From assembly GCA_022844345.1 (NCBI GenBank), contig JALHLU010000008.1, forward strand, positions 62,001-126,000: a DNA stretch of 64,000 nucleotides, read 5' to 3'. Source of the stretch: Hyphomonadaceae bacterium (GTDB taxonomy: Bacteria; Pseudomonadota; Alphaproteobacteria; Caulobacterales; Hyphomonadaceae). The number at the start of each line of letters is the position of its first letter. Positions within the stretch are counted from its first letter, which is position 1. Both the position numbers and the translations under genes were made by a program. The notes below the pieces were generated by a model. That model saw nothing but the letters and a program-made list of their open reading frames with translations, was not told the DNA's origin and did not search any database. Positions 1,856 through 43,061 of this stretch are shown piece by piece.

Positions 1856-2068
1856 GAAAATCTTGCGGCCGTTCAGTGGGTTGCCAACAACCGTTCATAT
1901 TGGGGCACAATTAGTAGGTGGCGCCGCCGGGGGTGATCGGGCGACGGTATTTGTGACACTGGGCCGATCCACTTGCGCAACAGTTGATTCGCAGCTCCTG
2001 CGCCGCACCCCATTGCGGGAGGGTCCTCATCTTGCGAGACTTTTGTCGCGTGTGAGGGGGGAACTGCG

Positions 2069-4039
2069 ATGATCCGGATATTGGCGGCGGCGGCGTGGCT
2101 GGCGGCGGGTGCGGGCTGGGCGGAGGCTCAGGACGCGGCGAAGTTCGTTGACGCCACGACGGTGATTTCGGCGCAGCTTTCGCCGAGCGGCCGGGAAGTT
2201 GCGTTGATCCGCCGCACCGATGAGGTCCAGCAGGTGCTGGTCGTGGATATCGCGAAAAAAGAGACGCGCGTGATCCAGTCCACGAGCCAGTCGAGCAGGT
2301 TCGATTTCGACTGGGTGCGGTGGAAGGGCGATGCCCGCCTCGTGATTGGCGCGACGGTCGAACTGGTCCGGCACGGCACCTCGATTCCCGGCCAGCTGCG
2401 CAGGACCGAGGACCAGGTGTTCCGCGTATCGCGCGTGTTCGGACTTGGCACGGACGGCCGCAATGCGGTGCAGATGTTCGAAGGCAAGCTCGCCAGGCTG
2501 TGGGGCAATGTCGGCTCGACCGTGCTGCTCGACGAACTGCCGGGCGATGCGGGACATGTGATGATCTCGGCGTGGGAAAGTTCAGGCTTCGGCGCCTGGA
2601 AAGCCGATGTCACGACAGGAAAGGTCGAGCAGATCGCCAATGGCGGATCGGAGACCTTGTACTACGCCACCGACGGCGCCGGCTATCCGGTGATCAGGAT
2701 CGACGGAACGGCCAACGTCCAGCGCTTATACCGCCGGGCATCCGGCGCGGAGGCCTGGCTTCCGGCAGGCGAGATCCGGCAGTCGCTGGCGTTTGACACG
2801 CCTGACTTCAGGATCATCGGACCTGGACCGGCGCGGAGCCAGGTCTACGTCCTTGCCCGGCATGACAACTTCGACCGGGCATCGCTCTATCTCTTCGACA
2901 CATCGACGGGTGATTTCGGAGCGCCGCTCTTCACGGGGGTAGAGGCCGACGCCAGTTCGCCGTGGATTGATCCGGCGACGCGCGCGCTGGTCGCGACGTG
3001 CGAATTCGCTGCCCGGCTCGCGTGCCGCATGGTCGACCCTCAGCTTCAGAAGTTTCTCAACGGCCTCAACCAGTATTTCGACAAGCAGGCGACGATCCAG
3101 CTGGTCAACATGTCGGCTGACGCCAAGAAATGGCTGCTGCGCGTCGGCATGCCAACGGAAGGCGCGAGCTACTACATATTCGATCTGGCGACCGCTCAGG
3201 CTGACAAGCTTCTCGATATCTATCCAAGCCTGTCCGGCCAGAAGCTCTCTCCTACCGAAGTCGTCACCTACGATGCTCGCGACGGAACACAGCTGTGGGC
3301 CTATGTCACGGCCCGGCCCGGCGCGACGGCCGCGCGCCCGATGGTTGTGCTGCCCCACGGAGGCCCCGAAGCTCGCGACCACTATGGCTACGACGCCTTC
3401 GCGCAGTTCCTGGCAGCGCAAGGTTATGTCGTTGTTCAGCCCAATTTTCGCGGCTCGGCCGGGTTCGGCGAGGCATTCTCGGATGCTGGGATGGGCCAAT
3501 GGGGCGGGCGCATGCAGGACGATGTCAGCGACGTCGTGAAGCACATGATCGCGTCAGGTGCGGCAGACCCGCAGCGCATCTGCATCGTCGGCTCGTCCTA
3601 TGGCGGCTATGCGGCCCTCGCCGGCGTCACGCTTACGCCTGACCTCTACAAGTGCGCCGTGTCGATCGCCGGCGTTTCGGACCTTCCCGAAATTCTCAGG
3701 AATGAGAGGCGGGACAATGGCGTGAATTCCAACGCATATTTCTACTGGCGGTACTCGATCGGAGACCCGGACAAGGATCGCGTTGCGCTGGAAGCCGCCT
3801 CTCCCGCCAGGCTGGCGAAGAATGTGAAGGCCCCCGTCCTGCTCATCCACGGCGATGACGACGAGACGGTGCCGGTGAGCCAGTCGATACTGATGCACGA
3901 CGCCCTGCGGTCTGCTGGCAAGCCGGTGAAACTGATCCGCATCCAGAAATCAGATCACTACTGGGACAACTGGAAGCGCAAGGACCGGTTGACCCTCTAC
4001 CAGGAAACGGCGGCTTTCCTGAAGCAGCATCTGGACTGA
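2069..4039 (+). CDS. S9 family prolyl oligopeptidase-type serine peptidase
   Basis: A 656-residue exported peptidase with a beta-propeller N-terminal domain and a C-terminal alpha/beta-hydrolase domain that cleaves short peptides, often after proline or from the N-terminus. Residues 1-20 form a signal peptide (MIRILAAAAWLAAGAGWAEA). The catalytic triad is visible: S510 in GSSYGG, D598 in HGDDDETV, and H630 in KSDHYW. The oxyanion region LPHGGPEARDHYGY precedes the nucleophile as in dipeptidyl-aminopeptidase/acylaminoacyl-peptidase members. A GGGGGGA purine run stands 6-7 nt before the ATG. It is divergent from the decarboxylase, with the shared intergenic space holding that gene's promoter; no obvious promoter for this gene was found. 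Substrate is unknown. Confidence 0.9.
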   Translation: MIRILAAAAWLAAGAGWAEAQDAAKFVDATTVISAQLSPSGREVALIRRTDEVQQVLVVDIAKKETRVIQSTSQSSRFDFDWVRWKGDARLVIGATVELVRHGTSIPGQLRRTEDQVFRVSRVFGLGTDGRNAVQMFEGKLARLWGNVGSTVLLDELPGDAGHVMISAWESSGFGAWKADVTTGKVEQIANGGSETLYYATDGAGYPVIRIDGTANVQRLYRRASGAEAWLPAGEIRQSLAFDTPDFRIIGPGPARSQVYVLARHDNFDRASLYLFDTSTGDFGAPLFTGVEADASSPWIDPATRALVATCEFAARLACRMVDPQLQKFLNGLNQYFDKQATIQLVNMSADAKKWLLRVGMPTEGASYYIFDLATAQADKLLDIYPSLSGQKLSPTEVVTYDARDGTQLWAYVTARPGATAARPMVVLPHGGPEARDHYGYDAFAQFLAAQGYVVVQPNFRGSAGFGEAFSDAGMGQWGGRMQDDVSDVVKHMIASGAADPQRICIVGSSYGGYAALAGVTLTPDLYKCAVSIAGVSDLPEILRNERRDNGVNSNAYFYWRYSIGDPDKDRVALEAASPARLAKNVKAPVLLIHGDDDETVPVSQSILMHDALRSAGKPVKLIRIQKSDHYWDNWKRKDRLTLYQETAAFLKQHLD

Positions 4040-4100
4040 GCGTGCTTGCGCGGGTCTCCTGCGTGTTCTAGCGCTCGACCACGGTATGCAGGAGTGCTCC

Positions 4101-4670
4101 ATGGCCGCCATGTCCGCGGATATCCGCCTGCCCGATTGGGTGGAAGCGTGGGACATGCCCACAGCGCCGGTATCTGATGTGGAGGCGATGCGCCTCGCCA
4201 TCGCGCTCGCCGAAGAGAATGTTGCACGCAAAACCGGCGGCCCTTTCGGCGCCTGCATCCGCCACGACGCGTCCGGCGCTGTGATCGGCGTCGGCGTCAA
4301 TCTCGCCGTGTCGAGCGGCAACCCCCTGCTGCATGCCGAGACCGTGGCGATCTCGATGTCGGGCAAGCGCCTTATCGCCGGGCCCGCAGGCGTCACGCTA
4401 TTTACCTCATGCGAGCCCTGCATCATGTGCCTTGGCGCATCGCACTGGGCGCAGATCGGACGCATCGTGTCGGCGGCATCCCGCGACGACGCGCGGACAG
4501 TCGGCTTCAGCGAGGGCGCGGGCACACCGCAGCTTCGCGCCGAGATGGCCGCGCGCGGCGTCATCTTCGAGGACGGGCTGTTGCGAGATGAGGGGTCCGC
4601 GGTGCTGAGGCGCTATGTCGGGAGTGGCGGTGCGATCTACGGGCCTCAGGTTCGGGGAGGGTCGTCATGA
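4101..4670 (+). CDS. Nucleoside/cytidine deaminase-fold zinc hydrolase
   Basis: A 189-residue protein of the CDA/tRNA-adenosine-deaminase/guanine-deaminase fold that hydrolytically deaminates a base or nucleoside. The zinc site is intact: H78 and the proton-shuttling E80 in HAE, then C107 and C110 in PCIMC. The GGPFGACI segment before HAE is typical of guanine-deaminase-like members. I place the start at 4101 because AGGAG at 4090-4094 is 6 nt upstream; an in-frame ATG at 4086 has no such site. The C-terminus overlaps the next lipoprotein gene by 4 nt (ATGA), which implies translational coupling. Guanine is a plausible substrate, but the sequence does not decide it. Confidence 0.85.
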   Translation: MAAMSADIRLPDWVEAWDMPTAPVSDVEAMRLAIALAEENVARKTGGPFGACIRHDASGAVIGVGVNLAVSSGNPLLHAETVAISMSGKRLIAGPAGVTLFTSCEPCIMCLGASHWAQIGRIVSAASRDDARTVGFSEGAGTPQLRAEMAARGVIFEDGLLRDEGSAVLRRYVGSGGAIYGPQVRGGSS

Positions 4671-5218
4671 GACGTATGATGGGTCCTGCACTTGGCGTGC
4701 TGCTTCTGGCGTCCTGCGACCGGCTGGAAGGTCCGGCGGACGCGCCGCCCGCCGCCGCCGCGTTCAACCATAGTATAAGCGCGGACCTGTCCGGCTACTA
4801 TATGCCAGCGAGCGAGACGCGGGTCGGGAAGTGGTCATTCGGCCACATCTTCGTTGGTCAGCCGCAGGAGTTCGAGGCTTGGGAAGGCGGCCGGTCCAAC
4901 GAACACTTGGCCCCAGTCCTGATCCAGTTTGATGATACTTCAAGCCCAATGGTTGCGGACAAGTTCGGTCGCGCCGTTGAGCATATTGTCACGATCCGTG
5001 TCTTGCCGACGGCCTACTCGGTGTCTGACACCGCCATCAATTTCCAGGGTCGGTCGCCGGAGCTGGGGCTGGTCCGGTTCGACGGACTGCTTGATCCGGG
5101 CGCCTTGGCGAGGCCGCGTCGCAGTCTCGGCGATGAGGGCTTGCTTTTGACGGGCCGGCTGACAGTGGGCGACTCTACGGCGCAGAACATCCAGCTGCGC
5201 TGGTGGAGCGGCGACTGA
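4667..5218 (+). CDS. Putative lipoprotein of unknown function
   Basis: A 183-residue protein whose first 17 residues, MRRMMGPALGVLLLASC, are a lipoprotein signal with lipobox LASC, so C17 should be lipidated. The mature part is soluble with no membrane helices. I recognise no domain. The segments FGHIFVGQPQEFEAWEGG and LIQFDDTSSPMV look like a folded beta-rich domain. The start codon overlaps the stop of the deaminase gene (ATGA), so the two are probably translated together. Nothing visible explains why a deaminase would be coupled to an envelope lipoprotein. Confidence 0.75.
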   Translation: MRRMMGPALGVLLLASCDRLEGPADAPPAAAAFNHSISADLSGYYMPASETRVGKWSFGHIFVGQPQEFEAWEGGRSNEHLAPVLIQFDDTSSPMVADKFGRAVEHIVTIRVLPTAYSVSDTAINFQGRSPELGLVRFDGLLDPGALARPRRSLGDEGLLLTGRLTVGDSTAQNIQLRWWSGD

Positions 5219-5354
5219 CGGCCGCACAATCCCCCCGAGCGGATGTCCAGCCTCCGTCCTTTCAAGGGGAGGTGAATTCTCCCTGGGCCGAATCTTATTG
5301 CTTCTCGATAACGCCCACCTAGAGTGCTCCTCAGGCAATTTCTGAGGGTGAGCG

Positions 5355-8180
5355 ATGTCCAGAAAACTCATGATGGTGAAGCTTGGCGGCGTGCTCGCGG
5401 CTGTGCTGGCGGCGAATGCGTGTGCTTCCCCGGGGGCCACATCCACGACCTATGCGGCGCCGATGATCCCGGCTGCCGTGCCCGAGCAGCCCGCAACGCC
5501 CGCGCGCGATCCTGTCGTCGCCCAGATAGCGGCGATGGAATACGACATCCCCTACACGAAGTATGTCCTGCAGAATGGCCTCACGCTTGTCGTGCACGAA
5601 GACGCCAAGACGCCAACCGTCACGGTCCACCTGATCTACCACGTCGGATCGAAGAACGAGCCGAAGGGCCGCTCGGGTTTTGCCCACCTGTTCGAACACC
5701 TGATGTTCAACGGCTCGCAGCATTTCAACGACGACTTCTTCAAGGCGACGCAGCAGTTCGGCGCCACCAACCAGAACGGCACCACCAACACCGACCGCAC
5801 CAACTACTATCAGACCGTCCCCAAGGAAGCGCTCGATTCCATCCTGTGGCTGGAATCCGATCGCATGGGCTATCTGCTGGGCGCCGTCGATCAGGCGCGT
5901 CTCGATGAACAGCGCGGCGTCGTGCAGAACGAAAAGCGCCAGGGTGAGAACCAGCCTTACGGCCAGGTGTTCAACCGCATCGTGGCGGCAACCTATCCGT
6001 CGGATCACCCCTACGGCCACACCGTGATCGGTTCGATGGAAGACCTCGAAGCCGCCTCGATGGCTGATGTTCAGGAATGGTTCAAGCAGTGGTATGGCCC
6101 CTCCAACGCCATTCTGGTGCTCGCGGGCGACATCAAGCCGGAAGAGGCGAAGGCGCAGGTCGAGAAATACTTCGGCGAGCTGCCGCCCGGCCCGCCTCAG
6201 GCCCAGCCGAAATCCTGGGTGCCCTCGCTCGCTGAAGACCAGCGCGAGGTGCTCTATGATCGTGTCGCGCAGCCCCGCGTCTACGTGACGTGGAACGTGC
6301 CGCAGCTCGGCCACGCCGACGGCGAATTGCTCGACCATGTCGCCTCCGCGCTCGGCGGCGACCGCAATGCGCGTCTCACCAAGCGGCTGGTCTATGACGA
6401 GCAGATCGCCACCAGCGTCAATGTCGGCAACCCGCAAAGCGAGATCGCTGGCCAGTTCCGCATCGTCGTGACGGCCAAGCCCGACGCCGACCTGGCGAAG
6501 ATCGAGACGGCGATCAACGAGGAGTTGGCCCGCATCATCGCCACGGGCCCGACCCAGGCCGAGATCGACAAGAACATCGTCCAATCCGTTTCCGGCATTA
6601 TTTCTGGTCTCGAGAGCACATCGAGCAAGGCGGCCCAGCTTGGCCAGTGGGAAATGATCGCCGGCGAGCCCAGCGGCTGGAAGGACTCGCTCGAAAGGCT
6701 CGAAGCGGCGACCCCGGCCACCGTGCAGGCGGCCGCAAGCCGTTGGCTCACACGCGGGTCCTACACGCTGACCGTCCTGCCGTTCGGCAACCCGAAGGCG
6801 TTCGCCGAACCTGTCGACCGCTCCAAGCTGCCGCTTCCCGGCGCCATCGCGGATGCGGCCTTCCCGGCCTTCCAGACGGCGACGCTGTCGAACGGCGCCA
6901 AGGTCTACCTCGTCGAGCGGCATGACGCGCCGCAGGTCAACGTGTCGATGGTGCTCGACACGGGTTATCCCAGCGACCAGTCCTCGATCCGCAACGGCCT
7001 CAGCGGCGTCACCGCCAACATGATGGACGAGGGCACCACGACACGCACTGCTCTGCAGATCGCTGACGAGGTCGACCGGCTTGGCGGCTATGTCGGCACG
7101 TCCGGCGGCGGCGAGCAGTCCGTGGTGGAGTTCAGCGCGCTGACGCCCACGCTTGATCGCGTGATGGCGATCTGGGCAGACGTGCTGCGCAATCCCGCCT
7201 TCGCCGAGGGCGATTTCCAACGCATCCAGGCTCAGACGATCCAGAACCTGCAGCAGCAGCTCTCCAATCCGGCCTCAATCGGACAGCGCGTGATGTCGCG
7301 CATGCTGTGGGGCGACGACCATCCCTATGGCCGCCTCGTCTCGACGGGCGATATTGCTGGCCTCAAGCCTGCAGATGCGGCTACCTTCCATAAGGCCTGG
7401 TACGGCCCCAACAACGCAACCATCTTTGTGGTCGGCGATACCACGCTCGCGGAGATCACGCCGAAGCTGGAAGCTGCGCTGGCTGGATGGGCCAATGCGC
7501 CCAGCCGCGCTGCGACGGTCCCGAATGGCGCGCGTCCCGCCAAGCCCACGGTCTATATCGTCGACCGGCCGGATTCGGTGCAGTCGGTGATCCTTGTCGG
7601 ATCGCCCCAGCCGCCGCGCAACCCGGCCGAAGATACGCGCGTGTCAGCCTTCAACGCTCTCTTCGGCGGCAACTTCGATAGCAGGGTCAACATGAACCTG
7701 CGCGAAGACAAGGGCTGGTCCTATGGCGCCCGTTCGCAGATCAGCGGCGGCCGCGGCCCGCGCACCTTCCTGATCTCGGCGCCGGTGCAGACCGATCAGA
7801 CCAAGGGCGCGCTCGCCGAACTGCGCAAGGAACTCACCGAAGTCGTCGGCCGCCGTCCGCCCAGCGTGAACGAGCTCAATACCGTGCGCACAAACACGCT
7901 GCTCGGCATGGCGAGCCGGTGGGAGACCTCTGGCGCCGTCCTCAACTCGCTGATCGACATCCACCAGTTCAACCTTCCGGCTGACTACTGGTCGAACTAC
8001 GCGAGCACCTATCGCGCGGCGACGCCGGGCGATATCGAGGCGATGGCCAAGCGCATCATCCCGGACCAGAACCATGTCTGGGTGATCGTGGGCGACCGCG
8101 CCAAGATCGAGAAGGGCGTGCGTGAACTCAACCTCGGCGAAATCCGCATCGTCGATGTGGACGGCAACCCGGTCCAGTAG
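5355..8180 (+). CDS. M16 family zinc metallopeptidase, two-lobed
   Basis: A 941-residue pitrilysin/processing-peptidase-family protein with two tandem M16 halves. The N-terminal half is catalytic: H111-L-F-E114-H115 and the third ligand E193 in QNEKR, 78 residues on. The C-terminal half (from about residue 500) lacks an HxxEH motif, having ANMMDEGT where it would lie, which is normal for the non-catalytic half. An export signal covers residues 1-23. LAANAC could be a poor lipobox or simply a signal-peptidase I site. GAGGGTGAG precedes the ATG. Such proteins act in the periplasm on peptides or misfolded proteins. A terminator follows at 8202-8234. Confidence 0.92.
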   Translation: MSRKLMMVKLGGVLAAVLAANACASPGATSTTYAAPMIPAAVPEQPATPARDPVVAQIAAMEYDIPYTKYVLQNGLTLVVHEDAKTPTVTVHLIYHVGSKNEPKGRSGFAHLFEHLMFNGSQHFNDDFFKATQQFGATNQNGTTNTDRTNYYQTVPKEALDSILWLESDRMGYLLGAVDQARLDEQRGVVQNEKRQGENQPYGQVFNRIVAATYPSDHPYGHTVIGSMEDLEAASMADVQEWFKQWYGPSNAILVLAGDIKPEEAKAQVEKYFGELPPGPPQAQPKSWVPSLAEDQREVLYDRVAQPRVYVTWNVPQLGHADGELLDHVASALGGDRNARLTKRLVYDEQIATSVNVGNPQSEIAGQFRIVVTAKPDADLAKIETAINEELARIIATGPTQAEIDKNIVQSVSGIISGLESTSSKAAQLGQWEMIAGEPSGWKDSLERLEAATPATVQAAASRWLTRGSYTLTVLPFGNPKAFAEPVDRSKLPLPGAIADAAFPAFQTATLSNGAKVYLVERHDAPQVNVSMVLDTGYPSDQSSIRNGLSGVTANMMDEGTTTRTALQIADEVDRLGGYVGTSGGGEQSVVEFSALTPTLDRVMAIWADVLRNPAFAEGDFQRIQAQTIQNLQQQLSNPASIGQRVMSRMLWGDDHPYGRLVSTGDIAGLKPADAATFHKAWYGPNNATIFVVGDTTLAEITPKLEAALAGWANAPSRAATVPNGARPAKPTVYIVDRPDSVQSVILVGSPQPPRNPAEDTRVSAFNALFGGNFDSRVNMNLREDKGWSYGARSQISGGRGPRTFLISAPVQTDQTKGALAELRKELTEVVGRRPPSVNELNTVRTNTLLGMASRWETSGAVLNSLIDIHQFNLPADYWSNYASTYRAATPGDIEAMAKRIIPDQNHVWVIVGDRAKIEKGVRELNLGEIRIVDVDGNPVQ

Positions 8181-15883: not shown

Positions 15884-17206
15884 TTGGGCGATATACCCCC
15901 GCGTGGAACATCGGCCGTTGTCGAGGCTGACGCCGCCTACGACAAGTTCGTCCATGACAACCTGAAGCGGAACTATATCGGCCATTTCATGCACGGCATG
16001 CTGGGCATGACCGGCTTCCGGCTGGTCAACACGCCAACCTTCGTGCCCGCCTACCTTCACTCGATCTCGGGGTCTGATTTCTGGGTCGGCATCGGTACCA
16101 GCCTGCAGCAGCTCGGCAGCATCGTGTCCCCGATTGTCGGCGCCTCGCAGGTCGAACACCGCAAGAAGATCCTGCCCGTCTCCGTGACGCTGGGCCTGTT
16201 GATGCGGTTGCAGATCCTCGGCCTCGCCATTTCCGGCTGGTTCATGGCAGGGCCGCCCGCGCTGTTCTTTGCGCTGCTGTTCCTGTTCCTGCTCGGCCTG
16301 TTCCAGGGTCCACAGCGCGTGGCGTTCCAACTGCTTCTGGCGAAGGTCATTCCCATCCGCCTGCGCGGCCGGCTGCAGGCCTGGCGCAATCTCATCGGCG
16401 GCTTGATCGCAGCCCTGCTGTCGTACTTCGCCGGATCATGGCTCATCGCCAATCATGTCTGGGGCAATGGCTACGCCACCACCTTCTTCGTCTCCTTCGT
16501 GCTCACCAGCCTTGGTCTCACCGCCCTGCAGTTGATGATGCGTGAGCCAGAGCCGCCAACGGTGAGAGCGCGCACGCGCCTGCGCGAGCGGATGAAGGAT
16601 TTTCCGGCGCTCCTGCGCGAGGACAAGGGCTTCGCCTGGTTCATGGTGGCGCGCACCTTGGTGATGGGCTCGCGCATCAGCCAGCCCTTCTTGCCGATCT
16701 ATGCGGCGCATATTCTCGGCATATCGCATGAGTTGAGCCCGGAAGAGTTTGGCGTGATGCTGGCGGCGTTGTCAGTCGCCTACATGGGCGCCGACACGCT
16801 CACAAACCTCGTCTGGGGCTATCTGTCGGATCGCCAGGGCTTCCGCTCGACCTTCCTGCTCTCGACCGCGATCAACATCGCCGGCGTCGCCGCCATGATG
16901 CTGTGCACCTCCATCGAGACCTTCGCGATCGCGTTTCTTCTAATCGGGGCAGGGCAATCGGGCTTCCAGATGTCCACCACAAACATCGTGCTGGAATACG
17001 GCCACCCGCACGACGTGCCGATGCGCATGGCGCTCTCGAACACGGCCGAGGGAGCCGCGGGCGCCTTCGCCCCGCTTTTGGGCGCGGGGCTTGTCCTCCT
17101 TTGGGGGTATCAGTCGGCCTTCTGGGCAAGTGTTGCGACCATGGCCGCAGCTCTCGCCATCGCGATCTGGAAGATGGACGAGCCCCGCCGTTCGCGTGGC
17201 CGGTAA
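15884..17206 (+). CDS. Major facilitator superfamily transporter
   Basis: About 440 residues with roughly twelve hydrophobic segments, for example LGLLMRLQILGLAISGWF, ALFFALLFLFLLGLF and SAFWASVATMAAALAIAIW. A central cytoplasmic loop is rich in Arg and Glu (MMREPEPPTVRARTRLRERM). The conserved GYLSDRQGFRSTFL in the second half is the MFS loop 8-9 signature. Substrate is unknown. There is no usable ATG before the first helix. A TTG at 15884 has GGGAAGGG about 8 nt upstream and is preferred; a TTG at 15860 has its purine run too close. The gene is divergent from the propeller gene and convergent with a small gene whose end lies 1 nt away. Confidence 0.85.
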   Translation: MGDIPPRGTSAVVEADAAYDKFVHDNLKRNYIGHFMHGMLGMTGFRLVNTPTFVPAYLHSISGSDFWVGIGTSLQQLGSIVSPIVGASQVEHRKKILPVSVTLGLLMRLQILGLAISGWFMAGPPALFFALLFLFLLGLFQGPQRVAFQLLLAKVIPIRLRGRLQAWRNLIGGLIAALLSYFAGSWLIANHVWGNGYATTFFVSFVLTSLGLTALQLMMREPEPPTVRARTRLRERMKDFPALLREDKGFAWFMVARTLVMGSRISQPFLPIYAAHILGISHELSPEEFGVMLAALSVAYMGADTLTNLVWGYLSDRQGFRSTFLLSTAINIAGVAAMMLCTSIETFAIAFLLIGAGQSGFQMSTTNIVLEYGHPHDVPMRMALSNTAEGAAGAFAPLLGAGLVLLWGYQSAFWASVATMAAALAIAIWKMDEPRRSRGR

Positions 17207-17207
17207 A

Positions 17208-17384
17208 TCAGGCGTTGTCTCCCGGTTGGCGCGAGTACCGCTTGCGGTCCGCCTGCTCGAGAAAGTCCATCATTTCGGCCGCCGGGGTCTCGTCCACCGG
17301 GAAGGTCTCACGCAGGGGCTGCGCGAAGACGCGCGTCCAGCGCAGCACGCGGAGTCGGTTCGGGGGAGGCTGGACGTCGTTCAT
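17208..17384 (-). CDS. Small protein of unknown function (58 residues)
   Basis: The reading frame from ATG at 17384-17382 encodes a 58-residue acidic/basic soluble protein with a hydrophobic-charged pattern (TPAAEMMDFLEQADRKRYS). A GAG lies 8 nt upstream, a weak ribosome site. The ORF can be extended upstream, but the extension is Arg/Gly-rich, crosses the terminator of the next minus-strand gene and looks non-coding. No family recognised. Called because its composition is protein-like and it fills the gap exactly. Confidence 0.45.
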   Translation of the reverse strand: MNDVQPPPNRLRVLRWTRVFAQPLRETFPVDETPAAEMMDFLEQADRKRYSRQPGDNA

Positions 17385-17494
17385 GTTTGTCTCGCTGGCC
17401 GTGTCGAAGGCTCTTGCTGTACCCGGTAGACGTCTGGCGGCCCGCAAGGTTCCGACAGGCCCGGCACGCAGCGCCCAACCCGCGGCAAGTAACG

Positions 17495-17526
17495 AAAACG
17501 GCGCGATTCCTTCAGGAATCGCGCCG
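17495..17526 (-). terminator. Intrinsic terminator after the 95-residue secreted protein gene
   Basis: Perfect 12-bp arms CGGCGCGATTCC and GGAATCGCGCCG with a 4-nt TTCA loop; on the minus strand followed by TTTT. Strong match to a rho-independent terminator. Confidence 0.88.
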
Positions 17527-17549
17527 CTTAATGTCTTGACGACCAAAGC

Positions 17550-17837
17550 TTACTTGATCTTGGCGAGTTCGGCGTCGAGTTCCTTCAGCTTGGCGTCCGT
17601 GAGCAGTTCCGGAACGAAGCTCTTGACCATGTCCGGCGTCATCTGGAGCGCCGGCTCAAGTTCGGGGGACTCGGCCATCCCCGGGAAAACTTTTTCGAGC
17701 GCAGCCTTGGCTTCTGCGTTCTCGATGAGGGCGGCAAAGGAAGACGTCGTGGTCGAGAATTTCGGCGCGTCCTGGGCGAGGGCCATCGGCGACATGGCGA
17801 CGGCGAAAGCGGCGGCGACAAGAAGTTTGCGGATCAT
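17550..17837 (-). CDS. Small secreted protein of unknown function (95 residues)
   Basis: Signal peptide at 1-21 (MIRKLLVAAAFAVAMSPMALA) followed by a short helical, Lys/Glu/Leu-rich mature protein of about 74 residues ending ELDAELAKIK. No cysteines and no recognised domain. GGAGAG precedes the ATG on the minus strand, and a very good terminator follows, so this is probably a monocistronic, well-expressed periplasmic protein. Function unknown. Confidence 0.75.
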   Translation of the reverse strand: MIRKLLVAAAFAVAMSPMALAQDAPKFSTTTSSFAALIENAEAKAALEKVFPGMAESPELEPALQMTPDMVKSFVPELLTDAKLKELDAELAKIK

Positions 17838-17972
17838 GGGTCTCTCCGGTTGGGCTGCCGTGCACGGTCAGCGTGTTGGAAGGTTCCATACAGGAAAACC
17901 GGAGAAACGGTCCAGTACCCCTTCGCAGTCACCCACGAACTGGTGATCTCAGGCGTCGGGCGGTCCTGGACG

Positions 17973-18629
17973 TCAGCCCTTGAAGGCTGATCCGCGGCCG
18001 TCCTTCTTGCGCGCTTCCATATCTGCCAGCAGCACGTTGATGCGCCCGATCAGCTTGTCGATGTCGCCATTGTTGCGATCAAGGAAGCTGACGAACTGCG
18101 CCTGCTGTTCCTGGGCAAGCCACAGGATCGATCCGCCAAGCTCAATACCCACATCGCGCACGCGGTATGTCTTGCCGTCATTCGACAGGAGGACGTCCCA
18201 GAACACCTTCGTGTCCTTGCCGGTCTGCGAGCTCTTGATCACCGACTCGACCGTCGACCGCTGCGGGCCGTCGTCCTTTGACCCGGTCACGCGAATGGCT
18301 TCGCCGCGGAACTGGTCGAAGTGCACCTGGTAGACCTCAAGCGCGTAGGTCTCGAAGATCTTGTAGTAGCGGTTGAATTCCGCATCACTTAGCGACCGCG
18401 CTTTGACGCCCAGCACGCGGCGGGCGATCGACTGCATGTTGGCGAACTGGTTCATGTACTGGCCGAACTTGGCCTCGCGCTGTTCGGCCGTGATTGTCCG
18501 GTCGTTCAACGCTGACAGCGCGGAGTTCGCGTTTGACTGCACGAACGCTTCGGCCCGCTTGTCCGCGAAGGCCGACGGAGCGGCAATCGTCAACGCGACC
18601 GCGGCGGCGATGATGCTGAAAAGTCTCAT
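17973..18629 (-). CDS. mlaC: MlaC-type phospholipid-binding periplasmic protein
   Basis: A 218-residue exported protein of the MlaC/Ttg2D family, which shuttles phospholipid between the outer-membrane MlaA complex and the inner-membrane MlaFEDB transporter. Signal peptide 1-22. Family features are the helical N-terminal half with FGQYMNQFANMQSIARRVLG, the segment FNRYYKIFETYALEVY, and the later strands with KVFWDVLLSNDGKTYRVRDV and GGSILWLAQEQQAQF. The start at 18629 has GGGAGG 4 nt upstream; an ORF extension to 18680 would cross that site. mlaA is immediately upstream (34 nt), supporting the assignment. The ABC transporter parts are not in this window. Confidence 0.88.
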   Translation of the reverse strand: MRLFSIIAAAVALTIAAPSAFADKRAEAFVQSNANSALSALNDRTITAEQREAKFGQYMNQFANMQSIARRVLGVKARSLSDAEFNRYYKIFETYALEVYQVHFDQFRGEAIRVTGSKDDGPQRSTVESVIKSSQTGKDTKVFWDVLLSNDGKTYRVRDVGIELGGSILWLAQEQQAQFVSFLDRNNGDIDKLIGRINVLLADMEARKKDGRGSAFKG

Positions 18630-39603: not shown

Positions 39604-40182
39604 ATGACCCAGCTAGTCACGCACGCGCCGCCATCCTTCGCGCCGAACGGATGGCCCGCCCTCGTTCTCAACGCCGATTTCCGTCCACTGTCGTACTATC
39701 CGCTCTCGCTGTGGCCATGGCAGGAGGTGGTGAAATCCGTCTTCCTCGAACGGGTCGACGTGGTCGCGGAATACGACGAGTACGTCCACTCGCCCTCGAT
39801 CACGATGCGGCTCCCGTCCGTCATCGCGCTGCGCGAATTCGTGAAGCAGGATCGCCAGCCGGCGTTCACGCGCTTCAACGTCTTCCTGCGCGACGGCTTC
39901 AAGTGCGTCTATTGCGGCTCCCACGAGGACCTGACCTTCGACCACCTCGTCCCCCGTTCCAAGGGCGGCCGCACAAGCTGGGATAACATCGTCGCCGCCT
40001 GCAGTCCCTGCAACCTGCGCAAGGGCGGCCGCATGGCGCACGAGATCAACATGCACCCGTCCCACCGCCCGCACCGCCCCACCACCTTCCAGCTGCAGGA
40101 GCAGGGCCGCAAATTCCCGCCCAACCACCTGCACGATACCTGGCTCGACTATCTCTACTGGGATGTCGAACTGGAGATGTAG
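39604..40182 (+). CDS. HNH endonuclease family protein
   Basis: A 192-residue protein with a zinc-stabilised HNH core: C101xxC104, D113-H114 (TFDHLVPRSKGG), N128 in SWDNIVAAC, and C133xxC136. The N-terminal 95 residues (ALVLNADFRPLSYYPLSLW and IALREFVKQDRQPAFTRFN) are characteristic of a very common stand-alone bacterial HNH family whose biological role is not settled. The start at 39604 fits the conserved N-terminus. It precedes the TIR-ATPase gene by 140 nt, but composition and spacing suggest they are separate units. Confidence 0.88.
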   Translation: MTQLVTHAPPSFAPNGWPALVLNADFRPLSYYPLSLWPWQEVVKSVFLERVDVVAEYDEYVHSPSITMRLPSVIALREFVKQDRQPAFTRFNVFLRDGFKCVYCGSHEDLTFDHLVPRSKGGRTSWDNIVAACSPCNLRKGGRMAHEINMHPSHRPHRPTTFQLQEQGRKFPPNHLHDTWLDYLYWDVELEM

Positions 40183-40216
40183 GCGGCGCGACATCTAACC
40201 AGTGTTCCACCCTTCA

Positions 40217-40238
40217 TAGTCACTCGCAAACGTGACTA
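40217..40238. promoter_or_regulatory. Perfect dyad upstream of the TIR-ATPase gene
   Basis: TAGTCAC and GTGACTA, 7-bp perfect inverted arms with an 8-nt spacer, about 85 nt before the GTG start. It could be an operator or, less likely, the end signal of the HNH gene since no T-run follows. Confidence 0.4.
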
Positions 40239-40282
40239 GGTCGTACGAGGGCTGATCCGCGTTAGTTGCGAGCTGAAGCCTT

Positions 40283-40303
40283 GGTCTCAGCAAAACGGAG
40301 ACC
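40283..40303. promoter_or_regulatory. Second dyad upstream of the TIR-ATPase gene
   Basis: GGTCTC and GAGACC with a 9-nt spacer, ending about 18 nt before the GTG start. In the mRNA it would be a hairpin just upstream of the GGGGGG ribosome site. Confidence 0.35.
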
Positions 40304-40321
40304 GCTTAAGTTGGGGGGCAA

Positions 40322-41878
40322 GTGGCGGACGTATTTCTATCTTATCGCAACACACCTGAGCGACGTTTGTTGGTCAAACGCTTGGCCGTGATACTCCGTG
40401 CGCACGAGGTCACCGTTTGGTGGGACTACGGTCTAGAGGCTGGTGAAAGTTTTCGCGCTCAGATTACCGAAGAGCTCTCCAAAGCGCGCGTTGTTGCGCC
40501 GCTTTGGTGTAGCGAAAGCGTGCAATCACGGTGGGTAATGATGGAGGCGGAGTTTGGCAAAGATCGCCTTGTTCCTGCACGTTTTCAGAGCGTACCGCCT
40601 CCGAAAGAATTTGCAGAGATTCAAGCCGCTGATTTGGTAGGATGGAATGGCTCGATCGATGATCCTCGGGTCAAAGCGTTCGTCCGCAAGATCTGCGAAC
40701 GAGTAGGCAAGCAACCCGATGCACCGGTAGATATGATCGAGGCGCTGCGCGACCTTCGGGAGCTGCCTGCTATTCCTGACGCCACCCGGGCTTTGGCGCA
40801 AACCGTCAGTGTACAGCAGGAGCATCTTTTATCTGATTTGCGACGAACCTGGGAGTCGTTCCAATCGAGGGACGACTTAGCTGTCGTGGAGCGCTTTTTC
40901 GAGCACGTGGCGCGAGCGGCTCCCGGGACCGGACTTGAGTTCGAAGTCAAACAGCACCTAGAGATTTCACGTTCGAAGACGGTCGATCTTCCCGGGCAAG
41001 CAGAGCCGCCCCGCGAGACTAAAAAACAGAATGAACGGGCGCGCGAAAAGAAGCCGAAGGGGCGGTTGGGTATTGGGGCCGCACCCTCCAAACAAGAGGC
41101 TGTCAGGCAGGAGCTGCCTCGAGGCCGAGTCATTGGTGTCGCTTCGGGAAAGGGAGGGGTGGGGACAACGTGGCTGGCGACCACGTTGGCATGTGCATTT
41201 GCTCGATCTGGAAGGCGCACCTTGCTGGTAGATGCCGACTTGGGATCTGCAAATGTTGACGTAATCTTGGGTATAGCTCCAGAAACCGACCTTGCGGCGG
41301 TAATAGCTGGCTGGGTAGAGCTGGAGGATGCGATCGCGAAGGTGAACGGAGGGGCGGGATCAACGACTGGCTTTGATGTTCTGCCGGGCCGTTCGGGCAG
41401 CGGCGCATTGGCGGGCCTTCCAGCCGAAGAGGTTTCGCGACTTGCGGCCAGCATTTCAGCACTCGCAATTCCATATGACGTTGTTGTTGTTGATTTGCCC
41501 ACTGGCATTGGAGACGACGCGCTAAGGATGGCGCGTGCATGCGACGAATGCATCGTAGTTTCGACTGACGAACCGCCGTCCATGACGGACGCGTTCGCGT
41601 TCCTGAAAGTGCTGGAAGGTTACGCCCCGTCTGTTCGCCCTTGGCTGCTGGCGAATATGGCAGATACTCCTGTGGCCGGTCGGCGAACAATTGATGCGTT
41701 GTTACGCGCCAGCAAGACCTTCTTGAAGCGCGTGCCGTTGATTGCGGGAGTTGTCCTGCGAGATTTGAACGTCCGAGCTGCTGTCCGTGCGCAGAGGACA
41801 ATTTTCAGCTTTGATGAGACCACTCAGGCGGCCAAGGATGTTCAAGCAATCGCAAACAAGCTCACAGCCGAGATGTAG
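40322..41878 (+). CDS. TIR domain fused to a MinD/FlhG-like P-loop ATPase
   Basis: A 518-residue fusion protein. Residues 1-130 are a TIR domain: DVFLSYRN, VWWDYGLEAGESFRAQI, and SRWVMMEAEFG, where W71 and E75 have the spacing of SARM1 W638 and the catalytic E642, so NAD hydrolysis or cyclisation is plausible. Residues 135-230 are helical; 230-262 a charged linker. Residues 268-518 are a SIMIBI ATPase closest in motif to MinD/FlhG: SGKGGVGTTW with signature K277, DADLGSANVDVILG with D304/D306, and switch II DLPTGIG with D391. The P-loop lysine is T282 (KGGVGTT), as in some CpaE/TadZ-like members. GTG start after GGGGGG. The gene is AT-richer than its neighbours (29/60 G+C at 41461-41520; 30/60 at 41761-41820), suggesting transfer. 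Function unknown; defence is a guess. Confidence 0.88.
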   Translation: MADVFLSYRNTPERRLLVKRLAVILRAHEVTVWWDYGLEAGESFRAQITEELSKARVVAPLWCSESVQSRWVMMEAEFGKDRLVPARFQSVPPPKEFAEIQAADLVGWNGSIDDPRVKAFVRKICERVGKQPDAPVDMIEALRDLRELPAIPDATRALAQTVSVQQEHLLSDLRRTWESFQSRDDLAVVERFFEHVARAAPGTGLEFEVKQHLEISRSKTVDLPGQAEPPRETKKQNERAREKKPKGRLGIGAAPSKQEAVRQELPRGRVIGVASGKGGVGTTWLATTLACAFARSGRRTLLVDADLGSANVDVILGIAPETDLAAVIAGWVELEDAIAKVNGGAGSTTGFDVLPGRSGSGALAGLPAEEVSRLAASISALAIPYDVVVVDLPTGIGDDALRMARACDECIVVSTDEPPSMTDAFAFLKVLEGYAPSVRPWLLANMADTPVAGRRTIDALLRASKTFLKRVPLIAGVVLRDLNVRAAVRAQRTIFSFDETTQAAKDVQAIANKLTAEM

Positions 41879-41996
41879 AACGCGCCCCTTGAACTCTTAG
41901 GTCATTGACCTCAACCCAATCTTGCCCCCTCCACATCTACCGTCTACAAAGACTGCAAACCGCCCCCAAAGAGGCGGAAGCAGACAGGAGGACCAC

Positions 41997-43061
41997 ATGC
42001 CCATCCGCGCCTTCCGCGCCGCGCTTCTTGCAGCAGCAGCCGTCGCCATCGCCGCCCCAGCCTTCGCGCAGAACCACACGCCGCCCAAAGAGGCGATGTC
42101 CCCCGGCTGGGAGCCCAAGCGCAACGCCATGGGTCAGCCCAACTTCTCCGGCGCCTGGGGCAATGAATCGCTCACCCCGTTCGAACGCCCCGTCGCCATG
42201 GGCGCGCGCAAGGCGCTGACACCTGAGGAAGTCACCCAGCGCGAGGGCGGGGCGGACTCACGCTACGCCGCCTCCAATGCGCCCACCGATCACAACAAGC
42301 CCGTGGTCGAGGATGGCCGCACCGGCGGCTACAACTCCTACTGGGTCGGCAACAACAACCGCGTCATGCGCGTCGGCGGCGAGCCGCGCACCTCGCACAT
42401 CACCTATCCCGAAAACGGCCGCATCCCGGCCCGCAAGCCCGACGCCCCGCCCAAGCAGACCAGCCCGCTGCAGACCATCTTCTTCACGCCCGAAGTCGGC
42501 GATCTCGACAGCTACGAAGTCCGCTCCGGCGCCGAACGCTGCATCTTCTGGCCGTCACAGGCCGGCGCCGTCCTGCGCGCCGCCGCCTACAACACCAACT
42601 ACCAGATCACGCAAGGCGCCGAAGCCGTCGCCATCATGGCCGAGACGATCAACGACACCCGCATCGTCCGCCTCAACTCGAAGCATCATCCCTCGTCAGC
42701 CATCACACGCCCATGGATGGGCGATTCCATCGGCTGGTACGAAGGCGACACCCTCGTCGTCGAGACGATCAACTATCATCCCGAGCAATACTTCTTCTAC
42801 GCCTCCGACCAGCTGAAAGTCACCGAACGCTTCACGCTCGTCGCGGATGATCGGCTGCTCTACCAGTTCCACGTCGAAGACCCGCTCGTCTGGGCCGAGC
42901 CGTGGGGCGGCGAATACGAGTTCAGCCGCTCGCCCGGCGTCTGGGAATACGCCTGCCACGAAGGCAATCACGGCATGTACAACGCCCTGATGATCGGCCG
43001 CATGCAGGACGCCGGCCTCATCAAGCAGGACACCGCCGCAACCCTCGGCGGGGTCGACTGA
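41997..43061 (+). CDS. Exported protein of unknown function (family member 1)
   Basis: A 354-residue protein with a signal peptide (1-24, ending AFA). The mature part has NFSGAWGNESLTP, GDSIGWYEGDTLVVETI, LKVTERFTLV, VEDPLVWAEPWGGEYEFS and YACHEGNHGMYN. The same blocks occur in the protein at 60172-61257, so the two are divergent paralogues of a family I know only as uncharacterised secreted proteins of alphaproteobacteria and acidobacteria. The conserved His, Asp and Glu suggest a metal or ligand site, but no activity can be named. AGGAGG is 6 nt before the ATG. It stands alone after the TIR-ATPase gene. Confidence 0.82.
   Translation: MPIRAFRAALLAAAAVAIAAPAFAQNHTPPKEAMSPGWEPKRNAMGQPNFSGAWGNESLTPFERPVAMGARKALTPEEVTQREGGADSRYAASNAPTDHNKPVVEDGRTGGYNSYWVGNNNRVMRVGGEPRTSHITYPENGRIPARKPDAPPKQTSPLQTIFFTPEVGDLDSYEVRSGAERCIFWPSQAGAVLRAAAYNTNYQITQGAEAVAIMAETINDTRIVRLNSKHHPSSAITRPWMGDSIGWYEGDTLVVETINYHPEQYFFYASDQLKVTERFTLVADDRLLYQFHVEDPLVWAEPWGGEYEFSRSPGVWEYACHEGNHGMYNALMIGRMQDAGLIKQDTAATLGGVD

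Follow-up and report, generated by a model that had tools for sequence, protein, structure and literature searches.

A TIR domain fused to a captured copy of FlhG: a candidate single-gene receptor in a Hyphomonadaceae bacterium

What is a copy of a flagellar regulator doing behind a TIR domain in one and the same gene? The question is raised by a stretch of 64,000 nucleotides from a Hyphomonadaceae bacterium (GCA_022844345.1, contig JALHLU010000008.1, positions 62,001 to 126,000; below, the window), in which a preliminary description had noted a TIR domain fused to a MinD/FlhG-like ATPase. We found the C-terminal half to be related to the FlhG of the host itself and to have lost the lysine of its P-loop. 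With moderate confidence we read the gene as a single-gene TIR receptor in which this captured, P-loop-broken FlhG copy would serve as sensor or bait. The fusion gene and its parts are as follows.

40322..41878, + strand: TIR-helical-linker-FlhG fusion gene (518 amino acids, GTG start, no internal stops)
40322..40711, + strand: TIR domain, residues 1–130 (Pfam TIR_2; AlphaFold2 model and PDB fold matches)
40544..40546, + strand: codon of E75, Glu at the catalytic position (invariant across three TIR alignments; opposite the Glu of AbTIR, 3h16 and other entries in alignment)
40823..40966, + strand: small helical module, residues 168–215 (also in a TIR-FGE protein, in an FGE protein whose start coincides with a contig end, and in a protein with two TIR domains)
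40982..41116, + strand: charged linker, probably disordered, residues 221–265 (segment 226–281 has a predicted local distance difference test score, pLDDT, below 50 in the full-length model)
41117..41875, + strand: captured FlhG domain, residues 266–518 (69% identity with the host's own flhG over 255–514; tree)
41165..41167, + strand: codon 282, ACA (Thr), at the position of the P-loop Lys of FlhG (KGGVGTT versus KGGVGKT)

The TIR domain and its catalytic position

The division into a TIR domain, a helical region, a charged linker and an ATPase fold, here of the FlhG type, had been proposed from the sequence and is confirmed by Pfam, a solved-structure match and the structure model. The full-length model places helices at residues 154–178, 183–199 and 204–220, followed by the low-confidence segment 226–281. 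TIR_2 matches residues 4–108 (E = 2e-14, 54.5 bits, cut-off 28), and the AlphaFold2 model of the TIR half, calculated with a 35-row alignment, has a mean pLDDT of 84.5. Its fold matches in the PDB are led by the TIR-APAZ protein of SPARTA, followed by the TIR domains of MyD88, SARM1, plants and AbTir.

The position of E75 is occupied by Glu in every row of three overlapping TIR alignments (36/36, 35/35 and 48/48) and that of W71 by Trp in 36/36, 29/35 and 41/48 rows. A profile alignment pairs E75 with the Glu of the NAD+ hydrolase AbTIR (8g83) and of other bacterial TIR domains, for example 3h16; this Glu is the catalytic residue in SARM1 and AbTIR. The earlier view of an intact-looking TIR domain with E75 in the active-site position is thus supported by Pfam, the model, the AbTIR alignment and the three TIR alignments alike, and the domain is predicted to be a probable NAD+-consuming effector.

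The closest TIR halves found are 57% and 51% identical to that of the fusion across some 150 residues and belong to two TIR-subtilase genes with a C-terminal Peptidase_S8 domain (L038:1501-3228 and L039:1465-3246, taken as the same genes as L075 and L076). Their likeness to the fusion stops near its residue 151.

Origin and P-loop of the FlhG half

Residues 269–515 match MinD/ParA-class families in Pfam. The first solved-structure match of the C-terminal part is FleN (5j1j; E = 2e-41, residues 269–514), while the best MinD-type match, the cell division inhibitor 1g3q, reaches E = 1.4e-15. A generic MinD or ParA domain was rejected, as FleN scores much better among the solved structures; the best NCBIfam model, that of archaeal MinD, stays below threshold (1.7e-25; 89.7 bits, far under the cut-off of 201.75). 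Of the original term ‘MinD/FlhG-like’, the FlhG-type fold therefore stands, and no unrelated fold is involved, but the domain is more specifically an FlhG and kin of the housekeeping copy of the host.

The genome has an intact flhG of its own (G000:C3:300988-301767), located directly after flhF and a 702-residue gene taken as flhA (names assigned by eye). Residues 255–514 of the fusion are 69% identical to this FlhG. A tree of 47 rows places the fusion inside a set of 17 rows that reaches the starred support level (99/94) and consists of 14 FlhGs of its own genus, two from other genera of the family and the fusion itself; the finer forks are below that level, the bootstrap was unsettled and the place of so long a row is unsure. 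The branch of the fusion measures 0.55 changes per site, the end branches of the genus FlhGs 0 to about 0.04. Comparison with the host flhG by NG86 gives a nonsynonymous divergence (dN) of 0.245 and a synonymous divergence (dS) near 3, which is saturated; NG86 left dS undefined in nine of the 11 fusion pairs, and YN00 returned a value for one pair only. Since synonymous sites are overwritten at a dN of 0.245, the protein sequence has been kept and the FlhG part is not a decaying pseudogene. Judged by these sequence comparisons, the C-terminal domain is a captured copy related to the host's own FlhG.

The copy deviates from its relatives in several respects. FlhG has the P-loop KGGVGKT, the fusion KGGVGTT. 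The P-loop Lys is present in 30/30 FlhGs of a first alignment and in 45/46 rows, with one gap, of a second. Position 394, beside the Walker-B-like Asp, is Thr in the fusion versus Ala in 46/46 FlhG rows. Kept are the signature Lys277 as well as Thr283, Asp304, Asp306 and Asp391. The ATPase cycle of the captured copy is, as far as such motifs tell, probably lost or strongly changed. Its C-terminal tail is shorter than that of the host FlhG. Sequence and phylogeny thus place the domain in the FlhG/FleN family, but the deviant Walker A motif KGGxxK[S/T] of that family is not present, nor is its flagellar operon context: the host flhG stands behind flhF on contig C3, and the fusion is on C8, flanked by an HNH gene and by one lacking any Pfam match. 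Residues 306–365 hold six of the 59 changes relative to the host FlhG, which is the lowest share of 31 rows; the next rows are close (0.12–0.15), and no claim is made for extra conservation of a special FlhG surface.

Architecture, recurrence and genomic site

The helical module (residues 168–215) recurs in three other genomes of a 398-genome sample of the order, with E values of 1.9e-14, 1.1e-11 and 1.8e-8; one further marginal match (E = 0.007) was not counted. In L205 the order of parts is TIR, helical module, charged stretch and FGE domain. L206 shows the helical module, the charged stretch and the FGE domain, its start coinciding with the end of the locus, so that a preceding TIR domain may be cut off. 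L201 has two TIR domains and then the helical module. The fusion has the part order of L205, the one complete comparison protein, with FlhG replacing FGE. Because the helical module links TIR to FGE in L205, FlhG stands in the slot of a putative sensor domain; to judge from the part order, it occupies the place where the related protein carries a domain of the FGE/C-type-lectin fold. The FGE domain, a subtype of the C-type lectins, is said (PMC10907252) to have been proposed as an invasion sensor, and PMC8195603 describes STAND-NTPase proteins that contain FGS domains and stand next to TIR partners.

The C-terminal parts of related TIR proteins are varied. In a set of 36 TIR proteins, drawn almost wholly from this bacterial family, 17 carry FGE, two subtilase and others TPR or Sel1 matches; one, the fusion, has ATPase families. 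This set comprises the fusion, 27 of 30 family loci, seven of eight own-genome loci and one order-level protein (L036), and leaves out L037 (the fusion again), L048 (equal to L047 in length and almost equal in score), L057 (cut by a contig end) and L067 (no phmmer match). The host genome itself has 25 TIR_2 matches, 24 of them above the cut-off; of eight of its other TIR proteins, one has an FGE end, six match TPR and the last shows nothing but TIR. Its contig C16 contains an array of TIR genes of about 560–590 amino acids (L186 at 3802-5481, 16458-18128 and 18367 onward; L187 at 1-1743 and 1961-3649), and each of five scanned copies (L069, L074, L071, L072 and L187:1961) matches TPR.

A second set consisted of 48 of the 84 TIR open reading frames (ORFs) of 60 loci, the omitted ones being chiefly look-alikes and truncated rows. 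It included one TIR-DnaJ_C, one TIR-nuclease and one TIR-AAA_35 protein; FGE matches occurred in three, subtilase matches in two and TPR matches in several. The TIR-DnaJ_C protein (L120:6001-7533, JAHZKP010000028.1) joins TIR to DnaJ C-terminal domains (5e-60); its zinc-domain match is under the cut-off and a J-domain match was not found. A second TIR-DnaJ protein was not seen among the matches listed in 337 class-level genomes, which cover query residues from about 210 on. The TIR-nuclease protein (L106:6001-7158), with a DNA/RNA non-specific endonuclease, is from a metagenome-assembled genome labelled Acidobacteria and has two possible effectors in one protein.

Whether TIR-MinD/FlhG fusions form a recurring family had been raised at the outset. 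At the sensitivity of our searches they do not, and the idea of a common housekeeping protein of the clade fared no better in the samples of relatives, order and class. Other fusions were absent among the matches listed in 200 relatives and in 398 order genomes (E 1e-20), from 105 family genomes searched with the TIR-linker part, and from 385 class genomes at E 1e-45; these samples overlap, and a very different TIR half could escape the thresholds. A script check of 134 loci found both domains in one ORF only in two records of the fusion itself, and six other FlhGs from long open frames had no TIR match (0/6). A phage- or plasmid-borne copy was also rejected: no copy with at least 80% query coverage occurs in 72,556 plasmid and 50,697 phage records, and a scan of viral contigs by a few peptide patterns gave no relative of the fusion or its TIR part, while the FlhG query had ten weak matches there, at 28–45% identity. 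Among the papers listed from the open-licence literature on TIR with MinD, ParA and bacterial immunity we met no TIR-FlhG or TIR-MinD fusion, and what TIR and FlhG together led to concerns Piscirickettsia plasmids. The open-licence literature likewise yielded no TIR domain with FGE-sulfatase, and what was met there on integrated decoys with anti-phage function concerns fungal and plant nucleotide-binding leucine-rich repeat receptors (NLRs).

The site of the gene is shared with two sister species, in which one stretch is missing.

40185..41914, no strand: stretch that the sister species G008 and G004 lack at the corresponding site (flanks align with 82.7–92.9% identity)

The flanks in G008 (about 90% identity) and G004 (83–93%) match up to 40183/40184 and resume from 41921/41915. 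In place of the fusion there are about 150 (G008) and about 590 (G004) bases without blastn match. Inspection by eye shows a GC-rich, inverted-repeat-like stretch between the HNH gene and the right neighbour in G008 (L136), and a possible small gene in the approximately 590 bases of G004 (L137). The same neighbours without the gene in two sisters bear out the earlier notion of a single-gene module, and by its sequence context the gene is a single-gene accessory stretch. Three species share the site, and gain here is not strictly separable from loss in two sisters; gain is favoured because of the deviant composition. The GC content of the gene is 57.0%, compared with 64.2% and 66.5% in two neighbours, and at third codon positions it is 56.9%, compared with 82% in the host flhG and 87% in both neighbours. 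The AT-richness first noticed is thus real, but the value of about 50% GC estimated from two lines was too low.

Upstream dyads had been pointed out as well. Two short arm pairs do exist, a perfect one of 7 bp (40217-40223/40232-40238) and one of 6 bp (40283-40288/40298-40303), but there are no inverted arms of at least 8 bp in 40150-40340, and 40150-42050 contains nothing like a promoter or terminator; the pairs were given zero weight. The left HNH gene was found in 13 of 15 genus genomes. The right neighbour has close matches (94% and 86%) in G008 and G004 only, and elsewhere paralogues of at most 52% among the matches listed. This downstream gene (41997-43058) has no Pfam match and belongs to a large paralogous family with 12–26 matches at E ≤ 1e-40 in each of the 15 genus genomes. 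Among nine neighbouring ORFs, Pfam recognised amidase, BLUF, HhH-GPD glycosylase, HNH, MAPEG and RF-1; three had no match.

Possible roles and related systems

We infer NADase activity, a defence role, the trigger and a clustering step for the fusion in the following way. The TIR domain would be the NAD+-consuming effector, the helical module with the charged linker a coupling piece, and the captured FlhG, which fills the C-terminal slot, its sensor or bait. The FlhG copy has kept its family and fold motifs and would act as a binding surface, probably without the normal ATP-driven monomer-dimer cycle, since the P-loop Lys is lost. Because FlhG contacts FlhF, FliM and FleQ-type activators in other bacteria (PMC12826062), a flagellar partner, or the protein of an attacker that is aimed at FlhG, would find a ready surface on a captured copy. 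The ligand might be a protein from a phage or mobile element with an action on FlhG, or one of the partners of FlhG (FliM/FliN, FlhF or a flagellar activator) freed by damage; its binding would cluster TIR domains and NAD+ would be depleted. The more specific version, an integrated decoy through which a protein aimed at FlhG trips cell-level immunity via the TIR NADase, with L120 as a second case of a housekeeping protein copied to where a TIR receptor has its sensor, is put forward as tentative.

Several observations weigh against a receptor of this kind. One such fusion was found, and conservation of the pairing across species is therefore unsupported. C-termini other than FGE are also in use, because six of the eight other TIR proteins of the host have TPR, and the helical module was not found in other proteins of this genome. 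In the full-length model the FlhG part has low confidence with no alignment rows; the rule of the tool had left zero FlhG rows in its alignment, which explains the poor model. We recognised no defence island around the gene with Pfam and PADLOC: the HNH gene has weak PADLOC matches, nothing else was found, and with six of the nine neighbouring ORFs in ordinary families the location in a defence island that had been asked about was not borne out. In the fusion itself, the TIR-type PADLOC matches (Thoeris ThsB, SAVED-TIR) cover only residues 1–73 and stay within the TIR domain, and PDC-M28B covers only 266–321. We know of no phage protein acting on FlhG. None was met among the open-licence papers listed either, the nearest hint there being an FlhF mutation in a phage carrier state of Campylobacter (PMC6282759). 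Finally, nucleotide binding may remain, because BcsQ, another SIMIBI protein, has RGGVGTT according to a table in PMC9178275.

This last point favours the mechanism originally suggested, in which ATP-dependent SIMIBI dimerisation itself brings two TIR domains together. The retained signature residues agree with such a switch, and BcsQ shows that the Lys-to-Thr motif exists in nature; the exchanges of the P-loop Lys and of Ala394 for Thr, at positions otherwise invariant in the FlhGs aligned, weaken it to the point where we think it improbable. Somewhat better placed, but still unlikely, is a localised effector, whose FlhG half takes the TIR domain to the flagellar pole, the membrane or FlhF/FliM and whose trigger lies elsewhere. 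The contacts of FlhG named above (PMC12826062) and the flhA-flhF-flhG cluster of the host with its intact flhG are in line with this. The lost P-loop Lys and the shortened C-terminal tail are not, and it is doubtful whether FlhF is contacted in the usual way in this clade, because the exact DQAxxLR motif was not seen by eye in the host or fusion sequences.

Some TIR domains are scaffolds only. A flagellar or motility regulator with a protein-interaction TIR domain and no NADase activity would accord with the FlhG origin, yet the Glu of the catalytic position is kept, the gene lies off the contig of the flagellar cluster and is missing at the site in two sister species, and the two closest TIR relatives carry subtilase C-termini; we give this explanation little credence. 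Short-lived accessory genes are common and the fusion is a single known case, as would be expected of a transient, functionless chimera. Against this stands a dN far below dS on a branch of 0.55 with an open frame, and it appears the least probable explanation of all.

If the receptor reading and its decoy version are true, bacteria, like plants, would build immune receptors by copying an attacker-targeted host protein onto a TIR enzyme, and it would follow that phages or other elements probably target FlhG. A search rule would follow: immune effectors fused to degenerate copies of housekeeping genes of the same genome. Even short of a decoy, the fusion shows that the C-terminal slot of a TIR-helical-FGE architecture can take a captured housekeeping protein.

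Among known systems, the TIR-FGE proteins of this order resemble the fusion in their N-terminal TIR domain, and L205 also in the helical module and charged linker, whereas their C-terminus is an FGE domain (sulfatase-modifying-factor/C-type-lectin-like) instead of FlhG. The TIR-subtilase proteins L038 and L039 have the closest TIR halves but a Peptidase_S8 C-terminus. SPARTA (TIR-APAZ), SARM1 and AbTir resemble the TIR half by fold and by profile; the fusion has no Argonaute/APAZ, ARM or SAM partner. The flagellar number regulator FlhG/FleN is matched over its full length, with the 69% identity to the host FlhG, but the captured copy is outside the flagellar cluster, behind a TIR domain, without the P-loop Lys and with a shorter C-terminus. 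Plant NLRs with integrated decoys are likewise receptors of TIR type to which the copy of a host protein domain has been added; the fusion differs in having neither NB-ARC nor LRR, and its decoy role is putative. The TIR-DnaJ_C protein L120, from another alphaproteobacterium and with chaperone substrate-binding domains in place of FlhG, is like the fusion in joining TIR to part of a housekeeping protein.
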